In this document: positions 713 to 26,064 of the stretch, one piece after another | How positions within the stretch are numbered: the stretch's first letter is position 1 | How the letters are laid out: each line of letters opens with the position of its first letter | Source of the DNA: a virus | DNA: 26,064 nt | Direction: 5' to 3' (one strand) | IMG/VR virus record: IMGVR_UViG_3300033145_001111 | Span: 1-26,064 of that record | Program-made: the position numbers and the translations under genes | The notes under the pieces: generated by a model | Databases searched by the model: none | Told to the model about the DNA's origin: nothing | What the model saw: the letters and a program-made list of their open reading frames with translations, nothing else

Positions 713-3340
713 ATGAAATCTTATTTATTTTTAATTCTAAATTTTATACTATTACTTTTATTAATTCCAACAATTTCTTCTTTTAAACCTTCTGAATTTG
801 ATTTTGATTATCCTTCCATAGAATTTGATAACAATACGGCCTTTGTAAATAGATCTGATTTCTGGGATAATTTAGATACTCCTGATGATATTTTCATAGG
901 AGATTTAGATACTGATGGGGGTCTTTATATGGATTTAAATGATGTTATTTCTTTTGCTTGGGGTTATACAGGAATAGAAAACTTATATTCTATGCAATTA
1001 GAGAAATACCTTTATGATATTAGTAATAATGTTGTTTTAGATATAGGAGAAAGAACTCTTAGTGGAATAGGTGGTTTAATGATAGATTTTAAGAATTTAG
1101 GACACATAGATTTTTTTGATAATAATTTAACAACAACTGGAAACATAACCGCAAATTTAGTAACTGCAAATATTTCTATGAACTATCTTAATTCAGCAAC
1201 TTATACAACACTTCAAGATTGGAGTGATACAACTCAAAGTGCAGGGAAGATAAGTGGGGGAGTTTTTACTTCAAATGGAGATGGAACTGTAAAAGTATCT
1301 GCAGGAACAGGGATTATTAAATTAATTGATAGTCCAATAGCTCCTAACTACTTTTTTGATTGGGTTGAAAATGCAAGTGTTCCCTTAGTTGATAATGCTA
1401 CAAATTATATTTATATTGATGTAAATGGAGGAACTCCAGACATCAAAGCTACAATCATAAAATCAGATGCAAATAATAGGAATAAGATTTTATTAGGAAA
1501 AATATTTAGAGAAGGAAATGATTTACATAAGGCAGAAGCAGGAATGGTAATTACAGAAGCAACAAAAAGAACCCTTACTTATTTTACACAAGTGTTTGGA
1601 GAAGTTGTAAGGGCAAGTGGTTATCTTATTGCTGAAACAGGAAATAGATATTTAACCACAACTAATGGGGTTTTATTTGCAGGATTAACAAGATTAACTA
1701 CTACAGCAATAGATACCTCTGGTGCAGGTGTTCTTGAATATTATTATAGAGATGCAGGAGCAGGTTGGAATGAATTTGAAGCAGATACAATTAATAATTC
1801 TCATTGGGATGATGGAACTGGAACATTAAATACATTAACTCCAAATAGATATGGGGTTCATTGGGTTTATGGAGATGCAGATGGACATTTAATGGTAGTT
1901 TATGGACAAGGAGATTATACCTTAGCACAAGCAGAAGCAGTACAACCTCCAACAACATTACCAAATCATGTTGCTGAATTTGGGTTTATAACTGCAAAAA
2001 TAGTAGTTAAAGAAGGGGAAACCAATTTATTTGAAGTTGAAAGTGCTTATGATATTGCTTTTACTCCAAGTGGTGCAAGTGTTCATAATGAATTGAGTGG
2101 ATTACAAGGTGGAAGTGCAAATGAATATTATCATTGGACTTTTTCTGATTATACTAATAGATTTTTAGCAGATGGAACAATCCCAATGACTAGTAATTTA
2201 GATATGGGAACTAATAATATTACTAACCTTAGTGAGATTAGAAATTCAGTAAAATCAGATGTTATACCTGCCTTAAGTCCTGAAGTTTATTGGAAGTTTG
2301 AAGATGATTTATTGGATTCAAGTGGTAATGGAAAAACACTTTCAAAAATCGGAGGAATAGAAGCTTATGCTATAGGAATAGGTATTGAAACTAAAGCAAT
2401 AGATTTAGATGGCTCAACAGTTTATAAGGCAACAACTTACAGCCCTATTGAAAATGATGACCCTCGTTCTGTAAGTGTTTGGTTTAAAACTGTTTCAAAT
2501 AATAAAATGGCTATAGTTGATTGGGGAGATGTTTTAGCTGATACAAGAAATTCTTTTGGAATATGGCTTGAAGACTCTGGAGATAATTCTGTTATAACTA
2601 TTGTTTTTGGCTCTGAGTCATTAGTAGGAACAACTGAATATTTAAATGATGGAGAATGGCATAATGTAGTTGTAACTTATTCAGGGGGGCTTGTAACAAA
2701 TAATTTTATTATGTATATTGATGGGGTTGAGGAAACCTTAGGAAGTGTCCCCGCAATAACATTAGATACTGACTCAGATGATGTAGCAATAGGAAGGTCT
2801 TCTACTCATAATGGATTTTATTTTGATGGAAAAATTGATGAAGTCGCAATATTTGGAGATATTCTAACTCAAGAAGAAGTAACTTCAATCTATGATTCAC
2901 TATCTGGAAAATTAAATATTATTAGTAATGTAAAGATTACAGGAGATTTAGTAACTCTAGGTGCAAATACAGCAGAAGATTTTCTTGAAAGTTCTGTAGT
3001 TTTAGATAAAGAGGGAACAACTGCATTAAGTCATTTTACTACAACAAGCGAAGAAAGAACTAAGGATGGAGAGTACGACCATGAAAATGTCGACGACGAT
3101 TTAATAAAGGTTTTAGTTCCATTAAAAGAAAAAGTCCCCGAACATTATGTAAAGTCTGTTAGCAAATTAGTGGAATTAATGAGAGATGCAATTTATGAAA
3201 TTAAAACTTGGATGGGAATAACAGATGATAGAATTGAAGAATTAGAAACGGAAAACCAAAAGATAAAAGATTGCACTTCATCTTCAAAAGATTTCCCAGA
3301 ATATAAAACTTGCATTGCAGGGATGGACATTATATTCTGA
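713..3340 (+). CDS. Secreted LamG/fibre-like adhesin (putative receptor-binding protein)
   Basis: 875 residues. A Sec signal peptide (about 1-23, hydrophobic, ending TISS) is followed by a region with short Asn/Thr-rich repeats (NLTTTGNITANLVTANIS) like phage tail-fibre shafts. A beta-rich domain lies at about 170-450. A LamG/concanavalin-like jelly roll at about 520-735 has the typical opening PEVYWKFEDDLLDSSGNGKT and ending KIDEVAIFGDILTQEEV. A charged C-terminal helical part (about 780-855) includes a short coiled coil, and two Cys lie near the end. There is no C-terminal membrane anchor, so the protein is either released or attached to the particle through partners. It likely binds host-surface glycans. 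The domain mix of tailed-phage fibre features with LamG is unusual for a tailless virus. The exact family is unknown. Confidence 0.75.
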   Translation: MKSYLFLILNFILLLLLIPTISSFKPSEFDFDYPSIEFDNNTAFVNRSDFWDNLDTPDDIFIGDLDTDGGLYMDLNDVISFAWGYTGIENLYSMQLEKYLYDISNNVVLDIGERTLSGIGGLMIDFKNLGHIDFFDNNLTTTGNITANLVTANISMNYLNSATYTTLQDWSDTTQSAGKISGGVFTSNGDGTVKVSAGTGIIKLIDSPIAPNYFFDWVENASVPLVDNATNYIYIDVNGGTPDIKATIIKSDANNRNKILLGKIFREGNDLHKAEAGMVITEATKRTLTYFTQVFGEVVRASGYLIAETGNRYLTTTNGVLFAGLTRLTTTAIDTSGAGVLEYYYRDAGAGWNEFEADTINNSHWDDGTGTLNTLTPNRYGVHWVYGDADGHLMVVYGQGDYTLAQAEAVQPPTTLPNHVAEFGFITAKIVVKEGETNLFEVESAYDIAFTPSGASVHNELSGLQGGSANEYYHWTFSDYTNRFLADGTIPMTSNLDMGTNNITNLSEIRNSVKSDVIPALSPEVYWKFEDDLLDSSGNGKTLSKIGGIEAYAIGIGIETKAIDLDGSTVYKATTYSPIENDDPRSVSVWFKTVSNNKMAIVDWGDVLADTRNSFGIWLEDSGDNSVITIVFGSESLVGTTEYLNDGEWHNVVVTYSGGLVTNNFIMYIDGVEETLGSVPAITLDTDSDDVAIGRSSTHNGFYFDGKIDEVAIFGDILTQEEVTSIYDSLSGKLNIISNVKITGDLVTLGANTAEDFLESSVVLDKEGTTALSHFTTTSEERTKDGEYDHENVDDDLIKVLVPLKEKVPEHYVKSVSKLVELMRDAIYEIKTWMGITDDRIEELETENQKIKDCTSSSKDFPEYKTCIAGMDIIF

Positions 3341-3882: not shown

Positions 3883-4760
3883 TGGAAGAAGAAAATCAAT
3901 TATATAATCCTAATGCAAACATTAATAGGAAAAAAGTTTTAATTATTTTAGATAAAATAATATATCCTAAATCTTTAAAAGAAATAATAAATGGGATGGA
4001 TTTTAAGAAAAAAGAATTTGAATTTAATTTATTTTTAAAAGATTCTTATGTTTGGGTAATAAGTCTTCACGATACAAATGAAAAGAGATTAGATTTAATA
4101 ACTAAAGAGATTAGAAATGAATTTTGTAATCAATTTAGTAAGGGGGGGGTAATTCATTTTAATGGAACAGAATTTATTGAAGAGTTAAGCAATTTAAAAG
4201 AGAAAATAAACAATGGAATTCCAGAAAGATTATTCAATGAATGGTTTATGAATTTAGCTATCCATTTAAGTAAAATGAAACATCCATTAGATAATTCTGG
4301 AAAGATTAAAAAAAAATATTTACCTGGTAGCCATATAGTTTCATTTAAATATAAGGTAGATAATTTACCTATAGTTTATTCAAATTACTTATTTATTTCT
4401 TCTGATGGAACAATGTTATCTAAACCATATATAAACGAACTTGCAAAAAAATCAGAAAAAGAAGCTAATGAAAAATTATTTAATACTGAAAAAAAGAAAA
4501 AAATATCTAAAAGAAATCCCTTAGATTCAAAACTAAGGCATGAAGTATTCAAGAGAGATGGATATAAATGTTTAGAATGTGGTGCTACTAATAAAGAAAA
4601 AACATTACATTGCGATCATATTATTCCAGTAGCACAAAATGGAACTGATGAGATGGACAATTTACAAACTTTATGTGATGATTGTAATTTAGCCAAATCG
4701 GATAAATGTTGGAAGGGAAATTTAAATGAGGTGGAGAATGGAAAAACAAAAGCTATCTAA
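3882..4760 (+). CDS. HNH endonuclease-like protein
   Basis: 292 residues from ATG 3882. The C-terminal third holds an HNH domain with a zinc-binding frame: Cys-x2-Cys at about 229-232, the HCDHIIP core at about 243-249, the Asn of DNLQTLCDDCN, and Cys-x2-Cys at about 265-268. The first 200 residues are a charged mixed alpha/beta region I do not recognise; it could be the targeting part. It sits directly before and overlaps the replicative helicase. Plausible roles are nicking at a replication origin, genome processing, or homing/host-DNA attack. It is not recognisably a terminase. The ATG is preferred over an in-frame TTG at 3873 because it couples to the upstream stop. Confidence 0.85.
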   Translation: MEEENQLYNPNANINRKKVLIILDKIIYPKSLKEIINGMDFKKKEFEFNLFLKDSYVWVISLHDTNEKRLDLITKEIRNEFCNQFSKGGVIHFNGTEFIEELSNLKEKINNGIPERLFNEWFMNLAIHLSKMKHPLDNSGKIKKKYLPGSHIVSFKYKVDNLPIVYSNYLFISSDGTMLSKPYINELAKKSEKEANEKLFNTEKKKKISKRNPLDSKLRHEVFKRDGYKCLECGATNKEKTLHCDHIIPVAQNGTDEMDNLQTLCDDCNLAKSDKCWKGNLNEVENGKTKAI

Positions 4761-6423
4761 AGAAACAACTACAAAATTAATTCATAAAGACGCTGAAAAA
4801 TTTAGGGAGAAGAATCCTGAATTAAAAAAAGCAATAGAAACAGTTAGAGAACAAAGAAAGATGAATGTTAAATTAGATTCTGAGGCTGTTGGAGAATATA
4901 TTAAAAGTTGGGCAACGATGAAAAAAAATCCAGCAATGGTTTCTTCAATGAAATTGGTATCAAAAAATTCTGAATTTTCAATACAAGAATTAAAGGAAAT
5001 GATTAGTGATGAGAAAAAAGAAAGACAAGAAGAAAGTAAAAAACAAGAAGAACCAAAAAAGAAACCGGAAAACTTTAAAGAAGAAATATTCACATTACTT
5101 TTATTAAAAAAGTATGATGAAGCTAATGAATTAATAGTTGAAGAAATAAAAAGAAATAATTATATTTATACTGTAAAAGATGATGTTAAACCAGAAATTT
5201 GGATTTATAAAGAAGGAGTTTATGTGCCTCAAGGAAAATGTGAAATAGAAAAACAAGTTAGAAAGCTATTAGGGAAAGCATTCAAAATAAGTTTATCAAA
5301 TGAAATATTACATAAAATTAAAGCAGATACACAAATAGATATAGATGAATTTTTCAAGACAAATTACATTGATGAAGTTCCTGTGAAGAATGGGATATTA
5401 AATATCTTCACTAGAGAATTAAGTTTCTTTGATCCTAAAAAAATATTCTTCAATAAGCTTCCAATAACTTATAATCCTGAAGCAAAATGTCCAATAATAA
5501 TAAAATTCTTAGAAGATGTTTTAAAATCTAAGGATGATGTTCCAGTTATGTTAGAATTATTTGGTTTTGCAATGTTAAAAGAATATAGATTTGAAAAAGC
5601 ATTTATGTTTGTAGGTTCAGGAAGAAACGGTAAATCAAAAACAATTGAATTATTAAAACATTTATTAGGAATTGAAAACTGTTGTTCTGTTCCATTATCT
5701 CAAATTACTGCAGAGAATACTTCTGTTGAACAATTACATGGAAAGATGGTTAATCTTGCAGGAGATTTAAGTAATGATAGTTTAAAGAAAACAGGAATGT
5801 TTAAGCAAACTGTTGGAAGAGATTTAATTTCTGCTAAAAGAAAATATTTAAGAGATTTACCTTTTGTTAATTATGCCAAACATATCTTTGCCTGTAATGA
5901 ATTACCGAAAGTTTATGATCTTTCTGATGGGTTTTGGACTAAATGGGTATTATTAGAATTTCCATATAAATTTATTACACAAAAAGAATTTGATTCTTTA
6001 CCAGAAAAAGAAAGAGAAATGAAAAAAATATTAGATACGGATATTATACAAAAAATTACAACAGAAGAAGAAATGAGTGGGCTTCTAAATACGGCATTAG
6101 ATAATCTCCAACTATTAATTAATAATAAAGATTTTAGTTATTCAAAAGGAACTGCAGATATTAAAGATTTTTGGATAAGACAATCAGATAGTTTTGCAGC
6201 ATTTTGTATTGATAAAATTATTGGAGATTATAATAATCATATTTCAAAAAAAAATTTGAGAAAAGAATTCAATTTTTATTGTAAAAGAAATAAACTAAAA
6301 GGATCTTCAGACAAGGGAATTAAGGCAGCATTAGAGGATAGATATGGTGCTGTTGAATCACAAATAAGGATTGGAGAAGATAGAGAAAGGGTATGGGAAG
6401 GAGTGAGGTTTAAAGATGAATAA
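4738..6423 (+). CDS. SF3 replicative helicase (D5/P4-like)
   Basis: 561 residues. The charged, partly coiled N-terminus (1-115) has no visible archaeo-eukaryotic primase motifs. A D5_N-like region (about 115-275) follows. The SF3 ATPase has Walker A GSGRNGKS (about 294-301), a Walker B-like MVNLAGDLS (about 337-345), and motif C ending in the sensor Asn of FACNELP (about 384-390). SDGFWTKWVLLEFP lies just downstream of it, as in D5-like enzymes. A C-terminal winged-helix-like region begins near ISKKNLRKEF. The family forms hexameric rings that unwind viral or plasmid origins. ATG 4738 overlaps the HNH gene end and has a purine-rich GAGGTGGAG just ahead. No primase gene is recognisable elsewhere in the window, so priming is probably host-derived or done by an unrecognised protein. 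Confidence 0.92.
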   Translation: MEKQKLSKETTTKLIHKDAEKFREKNPELKKAIETVREQRKMNVKLDSEAVGEYIKSWATMKKNPAMVSSMKLVSKNSEFSIQELKEMISDEKKERQEESKKQEEPKKKPENFKEEIFTLLLLKKYDEANELIVEEIKRNNYIYTVKDDVKPEIWIYKEGVYVPQGKCEIEKQVRKLLGKAFKISLSNEILHKIKADTQIDIDEFFKTNYIDEVPVKNGILNIFTRELSFFDPKKIFFNKLPITYNPEAKCPIIIKFLEDVLKSKDDVPVMLELFGFAMLKEYRFEKAFMFVGSGRNGKSKTIELLKHLLGIENCCSVPLSQITAENTSVEQLHGKMVNLAGDLSNDSLKKTGMFKQTVGRDLISAKRKYLRDLPFVNYAKHIFACNELPKVYDLSDGFWTKWVLLEFPYKFITQKEFDSLPEKEREMKKILDTDIIQKITTEEEMSGLLNTALDNLQLLINNKDFSYSKGTADIKDFWIRQSDSFAAFCIDKIIGDYNNHISKKNLRKEFNFYCKRNKLKGSSDKGIKAALEDRYGAVESQIRIGEDRERVWEGVRFKDE

Positions 6424-13081: not shown

Positions 13082-13218
13082 TTAATACTAAGAATAAATC
13101 TGATAAGAAATATTAATCCTAAGATAAAACCTATTGCACCCATTGCTAATGCTCCCATGTGCTTCTTTAATCTCTCCTGGAGTGGTTGTTTCTTATCTAA
13201 TATAGATCTAAGTTGCAT
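13078..13218 (-). CDS. 46-residue membrane peptide
   Basis: On the minus strand, MQLRSILDKKQPLQERLKKH is a basic amphipathic start followed by one hydrophobic helix (GALAMGAIGFILGLIFLIRF). Its ATG overlaps the ATPase stop as TAATG, so it is the last gene of the minus-strand operon. It could anchor or regulate the ATPase. The length and coupling make it credible. Confidence 0.65.
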   Translation of the reverse strand: MQLRSILDKKQPLQERLKKHMGALAMGAIGFILGLIFLIRFILSIN

Positions 13219-14174
13219 TATTCTAACTCCTCTGCATTAAATACTTCTTCTTTATCTTCTACTATCTCCTTTACTTTAACCTCATCCATATCCAAATTTA
13301 AAGGATTATTACTATGATGTTTCTGATTACCTTCTACAGGCATACACCCCCCCCTTTTAGCTAATACTTTATACTTACAGTATGTTTTTCTAGAAATTCC
13401 TAACATCTTTGCCTTGTTTTCTTGTGTAATCTTAAAAGGAAACTGAAATTGTTCAACTGCATCAATAATCTTTGAGTATATTTTTTCACTTTGCTGTATA
13501 TGGGTTGCTCTTTCTTCCTCATGTAGTGCAGAGAACAATGACCTCTTTTTGGTATCTATATACTCCTGACCTAATGGATTAAAGTCTGTAAATCTTCCTA
13601 ACTCATTTCTACTTCTCTTTGGATATTGATAACTATCAAAGTTCTTCTTACCAACTGAATATAACTTCTTCTTAGCATCTTCACCAAAATAAGCAAACCT
13701 TCCCCTTTGTAATGAATTGTTTGTATAACAATGTAATAAAAACTTACTTCTTCTTATTGCAATCTGTTTATTTAAGTCAAAGAATGAAGGAAGTATAATA
13801 ATAAATATCATATTCTTCTGACCAACTACATTAAGTATCTTCATTAATCTTTTCTGTTCCTTTTTCATTGCATCCTTTGAACTAAATACTAAAGAACCTT
13901 CATCAACTAATAAAACACTTTTATTTGGAAAAGATTCTATCTTTCTTATTGCATCATCATTATCAACACAAATATTATTTACTGTGAAGTTTCCATCAGA
14001 TAAATAATAACCAATCGTAATTCCTAATGTGGATTTTCCAACCCTTTCTAATCCATCAAGAAGTATTACTCCATCCCAATTCTTTTTATAAACAATATGT
14101 TTTAAAGTATCTAACCTTCTCTTTAAGAACTCATCCATGTAAAATTCATGTTCTTTAAGTTTTAATAAAGTCAT
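13218..14174 (-). CDS. P-loop ATPase, Zot/packaging-like
   Basis: 318 residues from ATG 14174 (a GTG at 14195 would add 7). Walker A is GLERVGKST (41-49) and Walker B is VLLVDEG (87-93). A sensor-like segment follows (QKNMIFIIILPSFFDLNKQI). RRSKFLLHCY is the type of motif seen in Zot- and FtsK-like viral morphogenesis ATPases. A C-terminal HTH-like segment (ENKAKMLGISRKTYCKYK, about 260-280) and an acidic tail suggest DNA contact. A putative role is genome packaging, extrusion or segregation. It is the core of the only minus-strand operon. Alternative: a DNA-partition or replication-initiation ATPase. Confidence 0.8.
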   Translation of the reverse strand: MTLLKLKEHEFYMDEFLKRRLDTLKHIVYKKNWDGVILLDGLERVGKSTLGITIGYYLSDGNFTVNNICVDNDDAIRKIESFPNKSVLLVDEGSLVFSSKDAMKKEQKRLMKILNVVGQKNMIFIIILPSFFDLNKQIAIRRSKFLLHCYTNNSLQRGRFAYFGEDAKKKLYSVGKKNFDSYQYPKRSRNELGRFTDFNPLGQEYIDTKKRSLFSALHEEERATHIQQSEKIYSKIIDAVEQFQFPFKITQENKAKMLGISRKTYCKYKVLAKRGGCMPVEGNQKHHSNNPLNLDMDEVKVKEIVEDKEEVFNAEELE

Positions 14175-14175
14175 T

Positions 14176-14592
14176 TTAGAATAGTTTTCCTTCACCTTTA
14201 GTAGGCATACCCATTCCTCTTTTGTTTTTTATTAATCTTAATTTCTTATCCAATTCAATAAGGTAACCCCTTAATTCTCCATTCTTTCCCATCCCAATAA
14301 TGTATAATTTTCCTCTAGCATCTTTTCCTTTTATACCAATGTTAGGAATTTGATTTAATATTTTTATAGACTTTTGTTTAATCTCATCAACTTTTTCTTG
14401 ATCATCTCCTTTAAAACTAAAACATAATTCATTCTCATAAGATTCTAATACTGAAAAAGTATGACTTAAATTCCAACTCATTAATCCTTGTTCAATCATA
14501 TATTCAATTTTATTTAATCTATCTAAGAAAGCAAAAGCATTATTAAATTCTGCAACATCTTCAGATGCCTTGGGCATAAAAGTATTTTCCAT
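14176..14592 (-). CDS. 138-residue protein, unknown
   Basis: First gene of the minus-strand operon. The helical N-terminal half (AFLDRLNKIEYMIEQGL...) is followed by a small alpha/beta part with repeated Lys-Gly turns (KGKDARGKLYIIGMGKNGELRGYLIELDKK). No catalytic motif or membrane helix. It immediately precedes the ATPase, so the two probably act together. No family recognised. Confidence 0.65.
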   Translation of the reverse strand: MENTFMPKASEDVAEFNNAFAFLDRLNKIEYMIEQGLMSWNLSHTFSVLESYENELCFSFKGDDQEKVDEIKQKSIKILNQIPNIGIKGKDARGKLYIIGMGKNGELRGYLIELDKKLRLIKNKRGMGMPTKGEGKLF

Positions 14593-16939: not shown

Positions 16940-17731
16940 ATGGAAGAAGATTACAACGAGGTTGCAGAACAAGTTGGTGTTCATCAAGCAGTTCAACAAG
17001 GACAGCTAGTTAATAACCAATCACAACAAATGCAATACCAAATGGAAGATGTAGAAAAGAACTTAGCAGAAGCTCAATTAGATTGTGAAGAAACATTAAC
17101 AAAAATATATCACTTATTAAAACAAGATACACTTAAACCAAGTAAAGAAGGAGTTTTAGAATGGGTTTCTATTAAAGATAGTAAAAAAAGAGTTCTTACC
17201 GAAGAAGGTGTAGATAAAATTATGCAGATTATGAATGGTTATATTAACAAGGAAACATTACTTTCTAACTTTGATGATAAAATGATTGCAAGAAGAATGT
17301 TAAAGTTTTGTTTAGCACTTAATGCTTTAATGTTTATGAAGTATGAAATATATTTTAGAACACCTACATTAGAAGAATGTCAAGAGATATTACAATCAAG
17401 AATAGATGAAAAAGTTAAAAGAAAGAGAATGAATTTACAATTAATGAATAAAGAATTTGATGAAGAACAAATAAAACAATCAGTATTAAAAGAAATAGAA
17501 CCACAAATTGAATATGAAATACAGAAAATAAAGCAAGAACAAACTAAATTAAACCTAAGAGAATTTGAAATGATATTCACACAGCTAGAAGCATTAGTTG
17601 AGGCAACACATAACAGGGCATGGAAGGGGGAGGAAAGAGGAAGTTTAAGAAGACACTTTAATATCTCTGAAGTGATTGGAGGAAGAACAAATCAATTACC
17701 AGAAAAGAAAGGATTTTGGGGAGGAAGATGA
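16940..17731 (+). CDS. 263-residue helical protein, putative assembly factor
   Basis: The Gln/Glu-rich N-terminus (about 1-60) and a long charged region at about 150-215 (RIDEKVKRKRMNLQLMNKEF...IEYEIQKIKQEQTK) point to coiled coils. A central helical domain (GVDKIMQIMNGYIN...ARRMLKFCLALNALMFMK) lies between them. The C-terminus KKGFWGGR is Gly/Trp-rich. No membrane helix. It sits between the basic protein and the LamG genes. Likely a structural or scaffolding factor; no family recognised. Confidence 0.65.
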   Translation: MEEDYNEVAEQVGVHQAVQQGQLVNNQSQQMQYQMEDVEKNLAEAQLDCEETLTKIYHLLKQDTLKPSKEGVLEWVSIKDSKKRVLTEEGVDKIMQIMNGYINKETLLSNFDDKMIARRMLKFCLALNALMFMKYEIYFRTPTLEECQEILQSRIDEKVKRKRMNLQLMNKEFDEEQIKQSVLKEIEPQIEYEIQKIKQEQTKLNLREFEMIFTQLEALVEATHNRAWKGEERGSLRRHFNISEVIGGRTNQLPEKKGFWGGR

Positions 17732-18621
17732 TGGTAGAAAATAGAACAATAACAATATTAGTAATAGGAATGGTTTCATTAATAGTTGGAATTATAATTG
17801 CTTTTACTTTGGTACAGAATGTTCGTGGAATTTATGAGGATGTTGATCCTGATACAACTGAAAGTGCAACACAAAGTATATTAACAAATTCTTTAGCAAT
17901 TTTATCTCCAGTTGCACAAGGATTTATTAGTGGAACATCATCTGCAACAGCAACAAATGATTCATGGATGGAATTTGATGGGGTTAATGATGGGATAGAT
18001 GGAACATTTAATTTAGATACTAATTTATCAAAAGGATTTTCAATTTCAATATGGATGAAAACTACTGAAGATGATGATAACGATTTAAGGGATTTGATTA
18101 ATATAGATAATCTTACAGGAAATTTTCCAGAAATCTCTTTAATTACTAGAAACCAATCTGGAAATAAACAACAAGCTACATTAAGAATAAGAGGAAATTC
18201 AACTTGTGATTTATTTTCATTTACTACCAGAACCAATTCTATAGCCGATAACAATTGGCATAATCTTATAGGCGTTTATAATGGAACTGGAGTGAATTTG
18301 TATTTTGATTCAACATTAAATGCAACTAGAGTCCTTACACAAATGAGTTCTGGGTGCGAGGATTTATTTAAAGAACAAGAAATAGCAAGTTTTAATGTTA
18401 TGGATATAGGTGATGACTCTGCAAATTATAATGGTGCGATGGATGAATTGAGATATTATAATACAACCTTATCAGTAGGAAACATAACTCAAATCTACAA
18501 CTCAGGCAGACAAGCAAACTCATCACTACCTTCTGAGGGGTTAGTATTATGGTATAGTTTTAATGAGAATTCAGGACAAACAATTTATGATAAATCAGGA
18601 AATGGTAACAATGGAATTTAA
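17728..18621 (+). CDS. LamG protein with capsid-like first helix (protein A)
   Basis: 297 residues. The N-terminal helix (ITILVIGMVSLIVGIIIAFT) matches the first helix of the capsid-like proteins (LVFGIASLVIGVIIAFVIV). A LamG domain (about 85-255) follows, with FDGVNDGIDGTF, SISIWMKT, NNWHNLIGVYNG and YNGAMDELRYYN. The last 27 residues open a second LamG-type unit (EGLVLWYSFNEN...DKSGNGNNGI), but the gene stops there. There is no second helix. It carries many sequons. ATG 17728 overlaps the previous stop (ATGA); ATG 17731 is an alternative. The end overlaps the next gene by 11 nt. Probably a surface-exposed virion protein anchored by the helix. Confidence 0.8.
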   Translation: MMVENRTITILVIGMVSLIVGIIIAFTLVQNVRGIYEDVDPDTTESATQSILTNSLAILSPVAQGFISGTSSATATNDSWMEFDGVNDGIDGTFNLDTNLSKGFSISIWMKTTEDDDNDLRDLINIDNLTGNFPEISLITRNQSGNKQQATLRIRGNSTCDLFSFTTRTNSIADNNWHNLIGVYNGTGVNLYFDSTLNATRVLTQMSSGCEDLFKEQEIASFNVMDIGDDSANYNGAMDELRYYNTTLSVGNITQIYNSGRQANSSLPSEGLVLWYSFNENSGQTIYDKSGNGNNGI

Positions 18622-20065
18622 TAAAATATGTATTTTAATAATGTTCTTAGGAGCAATAATGTTATTATTAGTAGCACCTTTTGTTTCAGCGAAAGGAATG
18701 ATAGATTTAGAACCTGCACAAGTTAATTTAGCACAAGTTTTAGATAAAGAATATATTGTAAAAGAAAGTGGAGCATATTTTAAAGATTTAAAACAAGATA
18801 TTCCAATAGTTTGGATTGATAAAAAAGTAGGAACAACATATCATGTTGATAGTATAAAGGATTTTGATAAAGAAGAAAATGAATCAGTAACCTTAGAATT
18901 CTTTTATGATATTCAACCAGATTGGATCGCACACTATGCTCACTCAGGAAAGTTTGATAGATATTATTTCCCAACACAATGGGAATGGGAATCTAATTGT
19001 CCAACAGAAGATACTTGTGATGGTGGATGGGTAACCTTTGAAGTATATAATATAGAAGAAGGAACAGGAAGTTCAACTTTTCCTATTGGAATAACAGGAC
19101 CAACTTGGGCAAGAGATGGAGAGTTTTATGGGGAGTTTAATGGGGAGAGTAGTAATATTAATACAAGTTCAAATATTAATTTATCAACAGGGTTTACCTT
19201 TTCAGTTTGGGCCAATTCTAATTCTTTAGATACCGATAATGGGTTTTCTAGAAGGATTTTTAGAGGGAACAACAATTTTAGACCTTTTTTAGGAGTTCAT
19301 ACAACAGGGGTTTTTGAATTTAATGTAGCCAATAGTTCTGGAACTCAAGCAGAAATACTTACAAGTAGTGTTTCAACTAATACTTGGTATCATCTTATTG
19401 GAACTTATAATTCTACATCTAATAATTTTACAGTTTATTTAAATGGAATATTTAATAATACTGAATTGTTAATAGGAGGTATTGATGATTATAATAACAG
19501 TAATCTTGTTTTAGGACTAGCAAGTTTTAGTCAAGGGAGATTTGATGGTTTAATAGATGAAGCATTAGCATATAATATAAGTTTTACTCCTGAACAAGCA
19601 CTAACACTTTACAACAACTACACATTAACATCATTAGGACCAAAACGAACAGGAACTCCAAGCACAACTGGTTTAGTATTAGATATAAACTTTGATGATT
19701 TTTCAGTTGCAGATGTTTCAGGACAAGCCAATCATGGAACAAATACAAATGTAAGTTTTGGAGTAGTTGAAGATATTAATATTACTTTAATTGAAGATAC
19801 TGATTATTCAATTTCAGGAGATACTTTAACAATAATTAATCAAAATTTAGTATGGACAGGAATGGATGTTAGTTGGAATTACTTACAGAATACAGGAACA
19901 CAAAATGCTTTGAATAGATTAGAAAATAACTTCACAGCAGGTGTAGATAATGTATCTTCTAAGATCCCAACAATATTTACTATTGCTGCAATAATTCTAA
20001 TACTAACTATCTTACTTTTATTAATTGTAGTATTTAAAAAACTATCTTCAGTTGGGGAGTTATAA
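18611..20065 (+). CDS. LamG protein with capsid-like second helix (protein B)
   Basis: 484 residues from ATG 18611. A new signal peptide (about 1-28, ending VSA) is followed by a unique domain with Trp and Cys (about 30-175). A LamG domain (about 180-340, FYGEFNGESSNIN...FSVWANS) comes next. A LamG-like opening motif (GLVLDINFDDFSVADVSGQA) precedes a beta region like the insert of the 181-residue capsid-like protein. The C-terminal hairpin half (NNFTAGVDNVSSKIPTIFT...) equals the NFTxGVDxVSxKIPT second helix of the capsid-like proteins. Together with protein A, the two recreate a full capsid-like hairpin with a LamG ectodomain. Likely a surface subunit. ATG 18611 is preferred over the longer frame because it yields a clean signal peptide. 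Confidence 0.8.
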   Translation: MEFNKICILIMFLGAIMLLLVAPFVSAKGMIDLEPAQVNLAQVLDKEYIVKESGAYFKDLKQDIPIVWIDKKVGTTYHVDSIKDFDKEENESVTLEFFYDIQPDWIAHYAHSGKFDRYYFPTQWEWESNCPTEDTCDGGWVTFEVYNIEEGTGSSTFPIGITGPTWARDGEFYGEFNGESSNINTSSNINLSTGFTFSVWANSNSLDTDNGFSRRIFRGNNNFRPFLGVHTTGVFEFNVANSSGTQAEILTSSVSTNTWYHLIGTYNSTSNNFTVYLNGIFNNTELLIGGIDDYNNSNLVLGLASFSQGRFDGLIDEALAYNISFTPEQALTLYNNYTLTSLGPKRTGTPSTTGLVLDINFDDFSVADVSGQANHGTNTNVSFGVVEDINITLIEDTDYSISGDTLTIINQNLVWTGMDVSWNYLQNTGTQNALNRLENNFTAGVDNVSSKIPTIFTIAAIILILTILLLLIVVFKKLSSVGEL

Positions 20066-20796
20066 TGAAAAGATGTTTAATCTTATTAACAATTTTATTA
20101 ATCCTACCCTTAGTTAGTTCTTTAGACTTCCCACATCATAAACAAGATACAACCCTAGAATTTTCTATAACTTCTAACAATGGAACACAATGTAATTTAA
20201 CTAAAATTAATTCTCCTTATGGAATTATAACTATTAATCAAATAGGAACTAAATCCTTCCAAACATTTAACTTTAGTATTAATGGAGCAAACTATTCTGA
20301 ATATGGAACTTACTGTCATAATTTAGAATGTACTGATAGTGTTAAGATTGTAAGTGGGGAAAAATGTTATGAGATAAATTACTTTGGAAAGGAATTAACT
20401 TCTTCACAAGCTACAATTTATTTAGGGTTATTAGGAATTTTAATTTTTGCCTTATTTGCAATTTTCTTTGGGATGGGTTTTCTTCCTAAAGAAAATACTA
20501 AAGATGAACAAGGAAGAATACTTCAAGTGAATTACTTAAAACATTTTAGATTAGTTCTATGGTTATTTGCTTACTTCTTATTAATTGCAATAATGTATCT
20601 CTCTTCAAATGTTGCTTTTGCATTCCTTCCTGCACAATTATTTGCTAAAGTTTTATTTGCTATATTTGTAGTGTTAATGGCAGTTTCTCCAGTAGTAATT
20701 CTAGTATTAGGAATAAGTTTCTTTGTTAAATTCTTCCATGATAAAGAGTTTCAAAATATGTTAAATAGAGGGATCTTTCCAGGACAACAATTATAA
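20065..20796 (+). CDS. Signal-peptide protein with Cys-rich outer domain and three helices
   Basis: 243 residues. Signal peptide 1-19. Outer beta-type domain about 20-112 with Cys 43, 84, 89 and 101 and several sequons. Membrane helices at about 117-138, 163-180 and 193-222, the last long. The TAATG overlap at both ends shows strict operon coupling. Likely a virion envelope protein or assembly membrane factor; no family recognised. Confidence 0.75.
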   Translation: MKRCLILLTILLILPLVSSLDFPHHKQDTTLEFSITSNNGTQCNLTKINSPYGIITINQIGTKSFQTFNFSINGANYSEYGTYCHNLECTDSVKIVSGEKCYEINYFGKELTSSQATIYLGLLGILIFALFAIFFGMGFLPKENTKDEQGRILQVNYLKHFRLVLWLFAYFLLIAIMYLSSNVAFAFLPAQLFAKVLFAIFVVLMAVSPVVILVLGISFFVKFFHDKEFQNMLNRGIFPGQQL

Positions 20797-20996
20797 TGGC
20801 AAATATGAATCTTCCAAGAACAGAAATAATGAGGGTAGATGCAGAATTTAAAAAATACATTCAAAATTTAAGTAGGTTTAAATCTAACCAAGAAAAAACA
20901 GATATTAAATGTCCAAGAATAACTAAGGCAATGTTTAATCAATTTATGAAATATCCAGAATTAGAAAAAGAAATTAAAACAAGGGTGTTAAAATGA
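20796..20996 (+). CDS. 66-residue basic protein, unknown
   Basis: MANMNLPRTEIMRVDAEFKKYIQNLSRFK... is helical and basic, with one Cys, ending ITKAMFNQFMKYPELEKEIKTRVLK. No membrane helix. Coupled by TAATG upstream and ATGA downstream between two membrane genes. Possibly a small DNA-binding or adaptor protein. Confidence 0.65.
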   Translation: MANMNLPRTEIMRVDAEFKKYIQNLSRFKSNQEKTDIKCPRITKAMFNQFMKYPELEKEIKTRVLK

Positions 20997-21580
20997 AATT
21001 AAGAAACATAATTAAAAAAGAAAGAAGAATGAATAAAAAGGCTGCAATTGGAATTATATTCTTTTTTATAATCTTAATACTTATTTTAGTTGTAGGTTTT
21101 ATTTCTGTAATGGTTTGGAGTGTAGTAGATATTGCAAGTGATGAAATTACTCCAATCATGTTAGAGTTAGGGATGGTAGGGGAAACCAATCTTTCAGAAG
21201 TAGCAGATATAACTTTTGGTGTAGCAAATAGTTTTGTTCAAGCATTACCTTGGATAGTTGCAATAGGATATGTTCTAGCATTAATATTTACATTAGTATT
21301 TGTTTTAGTTGTTGGATTCAATCCCCATCCAGCATTCATAGGATTATATTTAGCACTAATGATTTTATTAGTATTCTTATGTATAATTATGAGTAATATG
21401 TATCAAGATATATATACTGGAACAGATGAAGTTGCCACAAGATTACAAGAACAAACTACAATGAGTTATTTAATCTTACATTCTCCATTTATCATGGCAC
21501 TAATTGCAATCATTGGTGGAATCATAATGTTTACAAGACAAGCTAATACTGAAGGAGGGGGAGGGGCATTTGGCATATAA
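20993..21580 (+). CDS. Four-helix membrane protein
   Basis: 195 residues. Helices at about 19-43, 85-107, 115-134 and 158-180. A Gly-rich C-terminus (NTEGGGGAFGI). A second possible start at 21029 (MNKKAAIG) gives a pilin-like N-terminus; the ATG at 20993 is kept because it overlaps the previous stop. Likely a virion-membrane or envelope-remodelling protein. Confidence 0.7.
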   Translation: MKLRNIIKKERRMNKKAAIGIIFFFIILILILVVGFISVMVWSVVDIASDEITPIMLELGMVGETNLSEVADITFGVANSFVQALPWIVAIGYVLALIFTLVFVLVVGFNPHPAFIGLYLALMILLVFLCIIMSNMYQDIYTGTDEVATRLQEQTTMSYLILHSPFIMALIAIIGGIIMFTRQANTEGGGGAFGI

Positions 21581-21581
21581 A

Positions 21582-24500
21582 ATGGTAATTTTAACACATA
21601 AAAAGCACACAGGAAGCCATACAATAAAAATAATGTTATTTTGTATAGTAATGCTTATGTCAATTTCACTTATTTCTGCCTTTGAATTTGATAATATTCA
21701 AAACATTAAGGAAACTATTGGGAAAGCTGGATATAAAGATATTGAGATTAAAAATGCTTTTGGATTAGGAGAAACCCTATGGAGTGGAACTTTAGATTCT
21801 AATACAAATACTTGTGGAATTAATTGTGAAGCAATACAAACTATAACTTTGCATGAAGATGGAAGTTTAATTGATGATGTAATATTTAAAACATTAAAAG
21901 AAGATGAAAGTTGGAAAGAAGAATCTATTATAAGTTATAACCTTCAAATAAAAATAGGAGAAGAATCTTATGAAGTTGATGATTATGAATCTCAATGTTC
22001 TAAATTACTTCATATAAATGGATCAATGTATCAAAGTTGTGAACAAGTTCAAACTGGAAGTCATACAGAATATAATTATGAATGGGAAGATTATATTATT
22101 GGAACTGAATTAGAAGCAGGAATTTATGAAGTTAAATTAAGTGGAAAGAAAAAAATGAGTAGAACTGTTGATTGGATTTATAAAACTCAGGGAGAAACTT
22201 TAAATGAATGGGCTACTTGGGAAGGTAGTAATTTAGGAGTTGGACTTATAAGTTATTATAAATTAGATGATAATTTAGCAACTACAAATGTTATAGATAT
22301 AGGTGGAACAAATAATGGAACTGCTTCTGCTAATACCAATACTTTAGATGCTACTGGAATATTAGGAACTGCTTTCGATTTTAATAATGCAGAAGAAGTA
22401 GATTTAAATGCTGTAGTTTTACCTTTAACTGGGCCATTAACATTTAATCACTGGGTTAAGTTTAGTACAACTGGAAGTCAAATAAGTATTGAACAAAATA
22501 ATGGGGGAGCAGGAAGATTAATATTTTATCCTTATAGGGATGGAAAAATTGCTCTTCAAGTTGATACTGATAGAATTATAGATTATACAATAGATATTTC
22601 AAATAATGATTGGCATATGCTTACTATAAGAAGAAACTCAACTGATGATTGGAGTTTATGGATGAATGGAGTTCATACAATTTCTGCAAATGAAAATGCA
22701 GCTTTAGAAAATACTCCTACTTTTATTTCTGATGATGGTGCAGAAGATATGGAAGGATTAATAGATGAAGTAGGGTTTTGGAATATTGCTTTAACAGCAC
22801 AACAAATAGAAGATTTGTGGAATGGTTCAACAGGATTAAATTTTGTAGGAGAAGGTTTTGGAGTTACCTTAAATTCTCCTGATGATTTAGATAGTTTATC
22901 TGCAAATAATATTGATTTCAATGGAACAGCTATAATATTTGGAGGAGATAGTTTAGTTAATATGAGTTTATGGCATAATGGAACCGGAACTTGGGAAAGA
23001 AACCAAACAGAACTTTTAACAGGAACTATTAATAGCACAATATTTAATTCAGATTTTATAGATGGAACTTATTTATGGAATATTGAATCTTGTAATGATA
23101 ATGGAGAATGTGTTTTTGCACCTGCAAATAGAACTTTTACAGTAGATACTACCTTCCCAAAAATTACAATTAACAATCCAACATCGATTGTAGATTTTGG
23201 AATCTTAGGGAGAAATGAAACACTAAATTGGAGTGTTAGTGATGTTGATTTAGATAGTGTTTGGTTTGGATATAATGGAACTAATACAAGTTTATTTGGA
23301 GCAAGTAATACTACTAAATTTTTATTAACAAACACCCCTCATAATCTAACATTTTGGGCAAATGATAGTTTAGGAAATACTAATTCAAGTTTTATATCCT
23401 GGAATTATAGTTTATTTCAAACAGCAGAATCATTTGTAACATCTACAGTTTCTGGAGCAGTAAATCCATTTACACTAAATATTACTACTAATGGAACACC
23501 AATAACCATTGTATATTTAAATTATAATGGAACTACAAGTTTAGCATCAATCTCTTCTAGTGGTAATGATTTTATTATAACAAAAAACCAAATATCCCCT
23601 GTAGTTTCAGTATCAAAAGAAGTTCCTTTTTTCTGGAATATAACCCAACAGGGAGGAGGAACTAAATTAACTGATACACAAAATCAAACAGTTGATCCTA
23701 TTCAAATTAACAAAACTTGTGGTGCAGGTTCTTCTGTAATATATAACTTTACTATTTCAGATGAAATAACCCAAGCAAAACTTGTGGGTGCAACAGAAAA
23801 TACTTCTGTTAAAATAGATTTAGATTTATACACTTCTGATAGGGCATTAAAATTATTAGATTCTTTTAATGAGTATTCTGAATTAAATTCTGCAGCAATA
23901 TGTATTAATAATAATTTAAGTGGAGGAGAACAATATAATTTAGATTTACAAGTTCAATATGGTGCAACTGCTTATTCTTCTGAGTTTTATAATATAGAAA
24001 GAGCCACACTTAATTCAAGCACACTTTCACAAAATATAACTTTATATGATTTACCAACTGCAAACACACAGAAATTTAAATTAAGAGTTAGAGATACTTC
24101 TTTCTTACCTATTGATGGTGCTTTAATAAAAATACAAAGGAAGTATATTGAGAATGGAACTTTCTTCACAACAGAAATTCCAAAGGCAGATGAAGGAGGA
24201 ATAAGTTCTGCTTCATTACAAGTTAATGATATAATCTATAACTTCTTTATATTTGATGCAGGAGAATTAATTGCTTCATTTACAAATGTAAGAGCAGTTT
24301 GTCAAACACCATTAGTATCACAATGTGAAATAGATTTCAATGCTTTTCAATCAGAAATAACTATTCCTAATTTTGAAGAAGGAGATGATTTTAATTTTAC
24401 ATTAGGCTTTAATGAAACTTCAAGATTAGTTTCAACACAATTTATAATCCCTAGTGGAGAACCCTCAACAGTTCAATTAATTGTAATTAGAGAAGATACA

Positions 24501-24893
24501 TTAGGAACTGCAGTTTGTTCAGATACTTTAACTTCTTCTGCAGGAACATTAACTTGTACTGTTCCTGCTAGTTTTGGGAATGCTACAGTTCTTGCTAAGT
24601 TATTTAAAGATGATGAAGAACAAGGAAAAGGGAATATTAAGTTAGATCAAAAATCCTCAGATATTTTTGCAGGGGTTCTAGTTTTCCTTTCAGTATTAGT
24701 TATGATGACTTTAGTTGGAGTAGGAGTTTCAGATAATCCAGTAGTTACTGGGGTATTTTTGTTTGTAGGAGTAATATTATTATTCGGAATAAACTTAGTG
24801 AATAATACTGGATTTATTGGAGCAACAGCAACAATACTATTCTTTGCAATAGCCATTATATTAGTAATAATAAAAGCAGCGAGGAGATCTTAA
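21582..24893 (+). CDS. Large LamG surface protein with membrane anchor (putative spike)
   Basis: 1103 residues from ATG 21582. A basic start and signal/hydrophobic segment (about 1-34) are followed by an N-terminal domain with Cys. A LamG domain spans about 220-420, opening GLISYYKLDDNLATTN and closing IDEVGFWNIALTAQQIEDLW. Ig-like repeats follow (about 425-620, VTLNSPDDLDSLSANNIDFN and FNGTAIIF types). Further beta domains include a possible carboxypeptidase-like unit (KLRVRDTSFLPIDGALIKI). The C-terminal anchor has two or three helices from about 1020, ending AARRS. Very many sequons. Probably the main host-attachment spike. ATG 21582 is preferred over the TTG at 21570. Confidence 0.8.
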   Translation: MVILTHKKHTGSHTIKIMLFCIVMLMSISLISAFEFDNIQNIKETIGKAGYKDIEIKNAFGLGETLWSGTLDSNTNTCGINCEAIQTITLHEDGSLIDDVIFKTLKEDESWKEESIISYNLQIKIGEESYEVDDYESQCSKLLHINGSMYQSCEQVQTGSHTEYNYEWEDYIIGTELEAGIYEVKLSGKKKMSRTVDWIYKTQGETLNEWATWEGSNLGVGLISYYKLDDNLATTNVIDIGGTNNGTASANTNTLDATGILGTAFDFNNAEEVDLNAVVLPLTGPLTFNHWVKFSTTGSQISIEQNNGGAGRLIFYPYRDGKIALQVDTDRIIDYTIDISNNDWHMLTIRRNSTDDWSLWMNGVHTISANENAALENTPTFISDDGAEDMEGLIDEVGFWNIALTAQQIEDLWNGSTGLNFVGEGFGVTLNSPDDLDSLSANNIDFNGTAIIFGGDSLVNMSLWHNGTGTWERNQTELLTGTINSTIFNSDFIDGTYLWNIESCNDNGECVFAPANRTFTVDTTFPKITINNPTSIVDFGILGRNETLNWSVSDVDLDSVWFGYNGTNTSLFGASNTTKFLLTNTPHNLTFWANDSLGNTNSSFISWNYSLFQTAESFVTSTVSGAVNPFTLNITTNGTPITIVYLNYNGTTSLASISSSGNDFIITKNQISPVVSVSKEVPFFWNITQQGGGTKLTDTQNQTVDPIQINKTCGAGSSVIYNFTISDEITQAKLVGATENTSVKIDLDLYTSDRALKLLDSFNEYSELNSAAICINNNLSGGEQYNLDLQVQYGATAYSSEFYNIERATLNSSTLSQNITLYDLPTANTQKFKLRVRDTSFLPIDGALIKIQRKYIENGTFFTTEIPKADEGGISSASLQVNDIIYNFFIFDAGELIASFTNVRAVCQTPLVSQCEIDFNAFQSEITIPNFEEGDDFNFTLGFNETSRLVSTQFIIPSGEPSTVQLIVIREDTLGTAVCSDTLTSSAGTLTCTVPASFGNATVLAKLFKDDEEQGKGNIKLDQKSSDIFAGVLVFLSVLVMMTLVGVGVSDNPVVTGVFLFVGVILLFGINLVNNTGFIGATATILFFAIAIILVIIKAARRS

Positions 24894-25768: not shown

Positions 25769-26064
25769 ATGTTTAATCAAAAAAAAGCTCAGACAGGTGG
25801 TTTAATTACTAGCTTAGTCTTTGGAATTGCTTCATTAGTTATTGGAGTAATAATTGCTTTTGTAATAGTTTCAACTTTAACAGGTGCAGGATTATTAACT
25901 GGAACTTACCAATCATCAGCAGGAAATTTAAGTTCTAATTTCACAGCAGGTGTAGATCAAGTATCAGCTAAAATTCCAACAGTATTACTTGTTGCAGCTA
26001 TCGTTCTAATCTTAGGTGTTCTAGCTATCTTAGTTGGAGTATGGCAAAAGATGAGAATAGGTGG
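25769..26064 (+). CDS. Putative major capsid-like membrane protein, 5' part (continues at 1-67)
   Basis: The full product across the junction is 102 residues. A short polar N-terminus (FNQKKAQTGG) precedes a long helix (about residues 12-36). A short Thr/Ser/Gly/Asn loop carries two N-glycosylation sequons (NLS, NFT). A second helix (about 69-92) precedes a basic tail. Two hydrophobic helices joined by a Thr/Ser/Gly-rich loop in about 100 residues is the layout of spindle-shaped-virus capsid proteins (SSV1 VP1, His1 VP21). That family link is inference from layout, not from a database match. The start has a strong Shine-Dalgarno (GGAGG at 25756-25760, 8 nt ahead), which suits high expression and is rare in this genome. 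A near-identical hairpin follows in the next gene. Alternative: a pilin-like or other membrane structural protein. Confidence 0.75.
   Translation, partial: MFNQKKAQTGGLITSLVFGIASLVIGVIIAFVIVSTLTGAGLLTGTYQSSAGNLSSNFTAGVDQVSAKIPTVLLVAAIVLILGVLAILVGVWQKMRIG
26011..26064. repeat. Direct terminal repeat, right copy
   Basis: Identical to bases 1-54. If one copy is removed, the genome is a 26,010-bp circle. The repeat ends in the Met-Arg-Ile-Gly-Gly part of the capsid-like gene that starts at 25769. Confidence 0.9.

Follow-up and report, generated by a model that had tools for sequence, protein, structure and literature searches.

Introduction

A tiny protein of two helices is the building block of spindle-shaped archaeal viruses, and the way in which host-recognition domains are mounted on their particles is poorly known. 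Two hydrophobic helices with N-glycosylation sequons in the turn between them constitute the architecture reported for the capsid proteins of these viruses (PMC10866085). The core gene set of the spindle-shaped viruses of Thermococcales includes variable lectins of the ConA type that have transmembrane anchors (PMC12934983). Here, we describe two adjacent viral genes, A and B, that each join a LamG domain to one helix resembling that of a capsid-like hairpin encoded by the same genome. A contains helix 1 without helix 2, and B contains helix 2 without helix 1. The observation is real and unusual.

Genome and relatives

The window is an entire IMG/VR virus record of 26,064 nt. Bases 1–54 are identical to bases 26011–26064, and this 54 bp terminal repeat marks the window as a circular genome of ∼26.0 kb. 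About 20 related records were gathered from IMG/VR, from MAGs binned as Pacearchaeota and from apparently misbinned MAGs (Mycoplasmatota, Parcubacteria). The group is an undescribed, spindle-virus-like family with an uncultured archaeal host, and probably infects DPANN archaea. When A, B, the small capsid-like protein and the 1107-residue protein listed below were compared with annotated records of phages and viruses, the only matches were weak LamG ones in cyanophages.

The relatives have in common a gene block that encodes a K/R-rich protein, a 263-residue protein, a variable slot, membrane proteins of 243 and 195 residues, a protein of ∼1000 residues with three C-terminal hydrophobic segments, membrane proteins of 143 and 110 residues and at least one capsid-like hairpin. 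The members of this block discussed here, together with a second attachment locus and the large hairpin paralogs, are as follows.

16940–17731, forward strand: conserved 263-residue gene, upstream border of the attachment locus
20065–20796, forward strand: conserved gene for the 243-residue membrane protein, downstream border of the attachment locus
21570–24893, forward strand: conserved 1107-residue protein with LamG (motif first, the normal order) and three C-terminal hydrophobic segments
713–3340, forward strand: 875-residue fibre-like protein with LamG; second attachment locus
25769–26064, crossing the circle join to base 66 (25769–26010 then 1–66), forward strand: small capsid-like hairpin protein, 102 residues
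51–626, forward strand: large capsid-like paralog, 191 residues, with ∼100 loop residues between the helices; the ATG at 81 is the likelier start
Large paralogs in relatives: L023:9767-10384, L045:5286-5978, L075:3033-3605, L078:6154-6747

The 1107-residue protein is likely to be the end-fibre protein. A P-loop ATPase (window 13218–14195, reverse strand) has homologous genes in the relatives and is a packaging candidate. A helicase-like protein (window 4726–6423) matches L024 and not most other relatives, as if replication modules had been swapped. Sequence BPJI01000003.1 (38547 bases; L015 and L016), from a MAG labelled Parcubacteria, holds the same virus genome twice in tandem with a spacing of ∼19.3 kb; it is the assembly of a circular genome, and its label probably reflects misbinning.

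Capsid-like hairpin proteins

The model of the 102-residue protein consists of two long hydrophobic helices, residues 6–39 and 47–97 (51 residues in the second), with N-glycosylation sequons in the turn at positions 53 and 57, and so shares the α-hairpin layout of spindle-shaped virus major capsid proteins (SSV1 VP1, His1 VP21, SSV19 VP1). It has a pLDDT of 70 and represents a generic two-helix hairpin. The gene lies in a block that also encodes small membrane proteins and one giant fibre-like protein, a context that recalls the gene content of His1 and SSV1. This architecture and synteny, and not detectable homology, make a capsid identity of the hairpin a reasonable presumption. Comparison of the 102-residue family with SSV1 and His1 proteins using hhalign gave a probability of at most 2.5% and no sequence link. 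A PDB sequence search with the hairpin profile found no match, the hairpin matched no functional PHROG and a BFVD fold search with the hairpin model gave no E value below 0.85. A PDB fold search with this low-information model returned three unrelated helical chains, and solved spindle-virus capsid proteins were absent among the three compared.

Large paralogs with ∼100 residues between the helices are encoded in the window (191 residues) and in L023 (205), L045 (230), L075 (190) and L078 (197). Their loops form one family and the large paralog recurs beside the small one; it is possibly a minor decorated capsid subunit. Its presence in several relatives indicates that decoration of the hairpin is a habit of the family and that the loop accepts domains. 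A and B are the only proteins of the family that match just one of the two helices, if an ORF truncated at the end of its contig and two highly divergent hairpins are set aside. In one capsid-like ORF (L015:9803-10330) part of the N-terminal helix segment is repeated upstream of that segment (25.7 bits against the helix-1 profile).

The capsid-like proteins and the 195-residue membrane protein (20993–21580), like their homologs in L007-L026, start with [KR]-[KRGA]-[QAG] followed by a hydrophobic segment. Such starts resemble archaeal class III (prepilin-type) signal peptides, and a host prepilin peptidase may cut the virion proteins of the family. Cellular class III pilin-like N-termini of the host phylum (L046, L047 and L048) score 17–22 bits against the capsid-like helix-1 profile.

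Organization of the A/B gene pair

The coordinates originally predicted for A and B are correct, and the two genes can be divided into the following parts.

17728–18621, forward strand: gene A, 297 residues; helix 1, LamG and a trailing LamG-start motif
17749–17829, forward strand: residues 8–34 of A, corresponding to helix 1 of the capsid-like hairpin
18022–18486, forward strand: LamG (Laminin_G_3) core of A
18538–18615, forward strand: LamG-start motif GLVLWYSF..DKSGNGNNG, after the core in A
18611–20065, forward strand: gene B, 484 residues; signal peptide, N-terminal region, LamG, trailing motif, beta region and helix 2
18611–18691, forward strand: signal-peptide-like N-terminus of B (MEFNKICILIMFLGAIMLLLVAPFVSA); hydrophobic segment 6–24, then VSA-KG
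19142–19597, forward strand: LamG (Laminin_G_3) core of B, modelled as a ConA-like sandwich
19670–19738, forward strand: LamG-start motif GLVLDINF..DVSGQANHG, after the core in B
19739–19906, forward strand: beta region of B
19907–20041, forward strand: lead-in NFTAGVDNVSSKIPT and the helix of B that corresponds to helix 2 of the capsid-like hairpin

The start of gene A overlaps the stop of the upstream gene (ATGA), with GGAGGAAG just upstream, and A and B overlap by 11 bp in different frames; the flanking genes touch or overlap the pair. The signal peptide that had been proposed for B is borne out by its signal-like N-terminus. A and B carry 11 and 14 N-glycosylation sequons, respectively, nearly all of them in parts that are predicted to lie outside. 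The pair is known from one genome, and a search of viral contigs for relatives of B itself found none.

Capsid-like helices of A and B

Helix-1 and helix-2 profiles were built solely from the relatives. The C-terminus of B matches the helix-2 profile with 55.5 bits (iE 1 × 10−16), compared with 7.2 bits for the best unrelated of 705 ORFs and at most 6.8 bits in 20 genomes of the host phylum (691 ORFs with 459 hydrophobic segments). This agrees with the original prediction that B is a LamG protein ending in the second capsid-like helix with the capsid-like lead-in. B carries helix 2 of the hairpin family together with the lead-in NF[TS]xG[IV]DxVSxKIPT, with Thr at the position of the invariant Gly of the family (Gly83 of the small protein). 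In the AlphaFold model of B the C-terminal helix comprises 53 residues, similar to helix 2 of the capsid-like model (51). As judged by profile similarity, this segment is certainly helix 2 of the capsid-like hairpin.

The N-terminus of A scores 19.9 bits (iE 1.8 × 10−5) against the helix-1 profile. The best unrelated of the 705 ORFs reaches 6.8 bits, the best of the 691 ORFs (459 hydrophobic segments) of the 20 host-phylum genomes reaches 4.2 bits and one in 5,000 shuffles of the hydrophobic core of the helix reaches the score of A. The score depends on about 25 residues. A does not have the [KR]-[GA]-Q lead-in of the hairpin family; it begins MMVENRTITIL, and the near-invariant K5 and Q8 are missing. 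It keeps the equivalents of Leu16, Gly19, Ser22, Leu23 and Gly26 of the small capsid-like protein. The assignment of this segment as helix 1 of the hairpin is well supported by the profile comparison, and the view of A as a capsid-like first helix followed by LamG holds against unrelated ORFs, shuffles and cellular controls. Helix similarity stays above background in both proteins. Codon identity at identical residues is not above expectation; the duplication is therefore old, with no recent copying at the DNA level.

LamG domains and beta region

Both proteins exceed the curated Pfam cutoff for Laminin_G_3 (27.6 bits), A with 52.4 bits (8 × 10−14) and B with 71.7 bits (1 × 10−19). The model of B contains a ConA-like β-sandwich (strands within residues 185–321), and its best PDB matches include pentraxins and CBM40 (E ≃ 1 × 10−8). 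Within the whole family set the best match of A is B (215 residues, 25% identity, E = 1.6 × 10−6), and B in turn matches A most closely.

The trailing motif GLVL...NNG/NHG is present in both A and B, as had been noticed in the original prediction, and is colinear with the LamG alignment of the two proteins. GLVLxxxF...DxSGxxNxG is the usual opening strand of the domain and precedes the core in the 1107-residue and 875-residue proteins and in the LamG proteins of the relatives that were inspected. In A and B it follows the core, and the start of each core lies just at the usual end point of the motif, which points to circular permutation. Each protein is thus more likely to contain a single complete LamG in circularly permuted form than a LamG together with a leftover piece, so that the motif stands as first reported while its interpretation as a relic of splitting is the less likely one. 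In the AlphaFold model of B the motif stretch has a pLDDT below 50, and the permutation stays an inference from the order of the parts.

The beta region of B has the position and look of the last part of the loop of the large paralog, and BLAST alignments with 34–41% identity run from helix 2 part-way into it. This is suggestive of homology to that loop. Direct comparison with the loop of the 191-residue capsid-like protein gave 5.5 bits, which shuffles equalled; we therefore do not claim the homology.

The attachment locus

A and B occupy a variable attachment-protein locus. In the nearest relative, with 72% identity in the 263-residue protein, the 263- and 243-residue genes overlap directly, and hence A and B are extra. 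The slot is empty in five of the 12 relatives in which it could be read (L007, L018, L024, L093 and L096) and holds a fibre or lectin gene in the other seven (L015, L017, L020, L023, L025, L026 and L098); no capsid-like helix was found in the slot occupants of those seven.

The original prediction suggested that one ancestral gene had been split, leaving the hairpin distributed over two LamG genes. The distribution stands: there are two halves, in the right order and with consistent topology. The ancestral unsplit gene is so far without support, since the ∼20 related records contain neither an unsplit version nor a second split pair and A and B are absent from the nearest relatives; a search of 371 host-phylum genomes with the hairpin profile found no unsplit ancestor either. 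Such an ancestor is plausible. Equally open are the insertion of a signal-peptide–LamG unit into a gene of this kind, and tandem duplication followed by complementary losses.

Proposed mount and alternative explanations

The best explanation of these features, to which we give an even chance, is that A and B form a co-translated virion attachment pair on a split capsid-hairpin mount. Their helices would derive from a copy of the capsid-like hairpin of the virus itself. A, which begins at the stop codon of the preceding gene, would insert through helix 1 as a signal anchor, with its N-terminus inside and its lectin outside; with helix 1 able to serve in this role, A can do without a signal peptide. 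For B, which begins within the 3′ end of gene A, export would rely on a cleavable signal peptide, needed because helix 2 comes last, and would be stopped by that helix. Both lectins would then face the side of the turn or loop of the capsid hairpin and its sequons. The two helices would pair and together take the place of a single capsid subunit of the lattice, such that one subunit position would carry two lectin domains for host binding. Since the halves retained by the two proteins are exactly complementary, pairing in a capsid subunit position is the simplest reading. That the halves, each with its circularly permuted lectin, assemble into one decorated subunit inside the capsid lattice is a possibility that we advance more tentatively than the attachment pair itself. 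We are far surer of the homology of the anchors than of the pairing of A with B; presence in virions, this pairing and glycan binding are inferred, as is the capsid nature of the hairpin.

Homology of the helices is silent on pairing, and A and B could be independent single-pass proteins with capsid-derived anchors that rebuild no hairpin, each helix lying against normal capsid subunits or in the virion membrane. Separate divergence after a tandem duplication is conceivable given the LamG similarity of A and B. We regard this as somewhat unlikely, because two overlapping, adjacent genes retain one complementary half each in the correct order and topology. It is also conceivable that A and B are displayed on the host surface during infection, for adhesion or exclusion of a second virus, and that their helices are membrane anchors only. 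Packaging of A and B in virions is presumed, and ConA-like domains also occur in cellular surface proteins, as the weak LamG match to the TafC fimbrial protein model illustrates. The locus, however, lies inside a conserved block of presumed virion genes, where relatives have fibre genes, and the anchor is taken from the presumed main protein of the particle itself; a role on the host surface is accordingly improbable.

A narrower doubt concerns A, whose helix might be an ordinary signal anchor, similar to helix 1 through its composition, leaving B as the only capsid-related protein. The score of A is far below that of B, one shuffle in 5,000 matches it, and cellular pilin-like N-termini in the 371 genomes searched reach 17–22 bits on the helix-1 profile when the KKGQ columns are included. 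When these columns are left out and the helix alone is compared, A scores 19.6 bits, above every cellular match (16.5 bits or less); the five conserved Leu, Gly and Ser equivalents are retained and the gene adjoins B. We consider an ordinary anchor in A slightly more improbable still. Finally, the pair could be the decaying remnant of a single fused gene, with A cut by a stop codon and the start of B fortuitous, as might be read from the end of A directly after the LamG-start motif and from the overlap of the two reading frames in different frames. Both frames are fully open, though, B opens with a well formed signal peptide that would be unexpected inside a fused gene, and the trailing motif completes a permuted LamG and leaves no fragment, which makes decay a very remote prospect.

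If A and B do use the hairpin halves as a split mount, the capsid lattice itself would be the docking platform, and a capsid subunit could be split and rejoined while bearing large outward domains. The receptor-binding system would be grafted on the capsid protein and not on a tail or spike. Such a platform would account for the spread of attachment domains among these tailless viruses. The pair would also be a natural two-component display scaffold. More broadly, the pair draws attention to a group of viruses, probably infecting DPANN archaea, that decorate their hairpin loops repeatedly.

Comparison with known systems

Our literature search, with subscription journals mostly outside its coverage, found no paper on DPANN spindle viruses that describes a split-hairpin lectin arrangement. 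The LamG region of the TafC family fimbrial protein (NCBIfam NF052521) matches A with 22 bits and B with 43.5 bits, far under the family cutoff of 410 bits, and the match is limited to the LamG part. VP4 (C792), the end-fibre protein of SSV1, is a large β-rich attachment protein with C-terminal hydrophobic segments and is analogous to the 1107-residue protein of the window. It has no sequence relation to A or B and, unlike them, is anchored by its own C-terminal segments and not by capsid helices.

VP1 and VP3 of fuselloviruses (SSV1; PMC9608457) resemble the hairpin pair of the window in being main and minor paralogous forms of a hydrophobic capsid protein of two helices, whose turn or its vicinity carries N-glycosylation sequons. 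The two pairs have no detectable sequence relation, and the present virus differs in having a large paralog with ∼100 turn residues and hairpin halves joined to lectins. In the accessible text of the report on Thermococcales spindle-shaped viruses (PMC12934983), ConA1 and ConA2 are, like A and B, ConA-like lectins for which a transmembrane anchor is predicted; they are modular and variable and occupy fixed positions in the spindle-virus genomes. A and B differ from them in carrying one lectin each, split over two overlapping genes. That text describes no anchor of the present kind, whereas the anchors of A and B are halves of the virus's own capsid-like hairpin.
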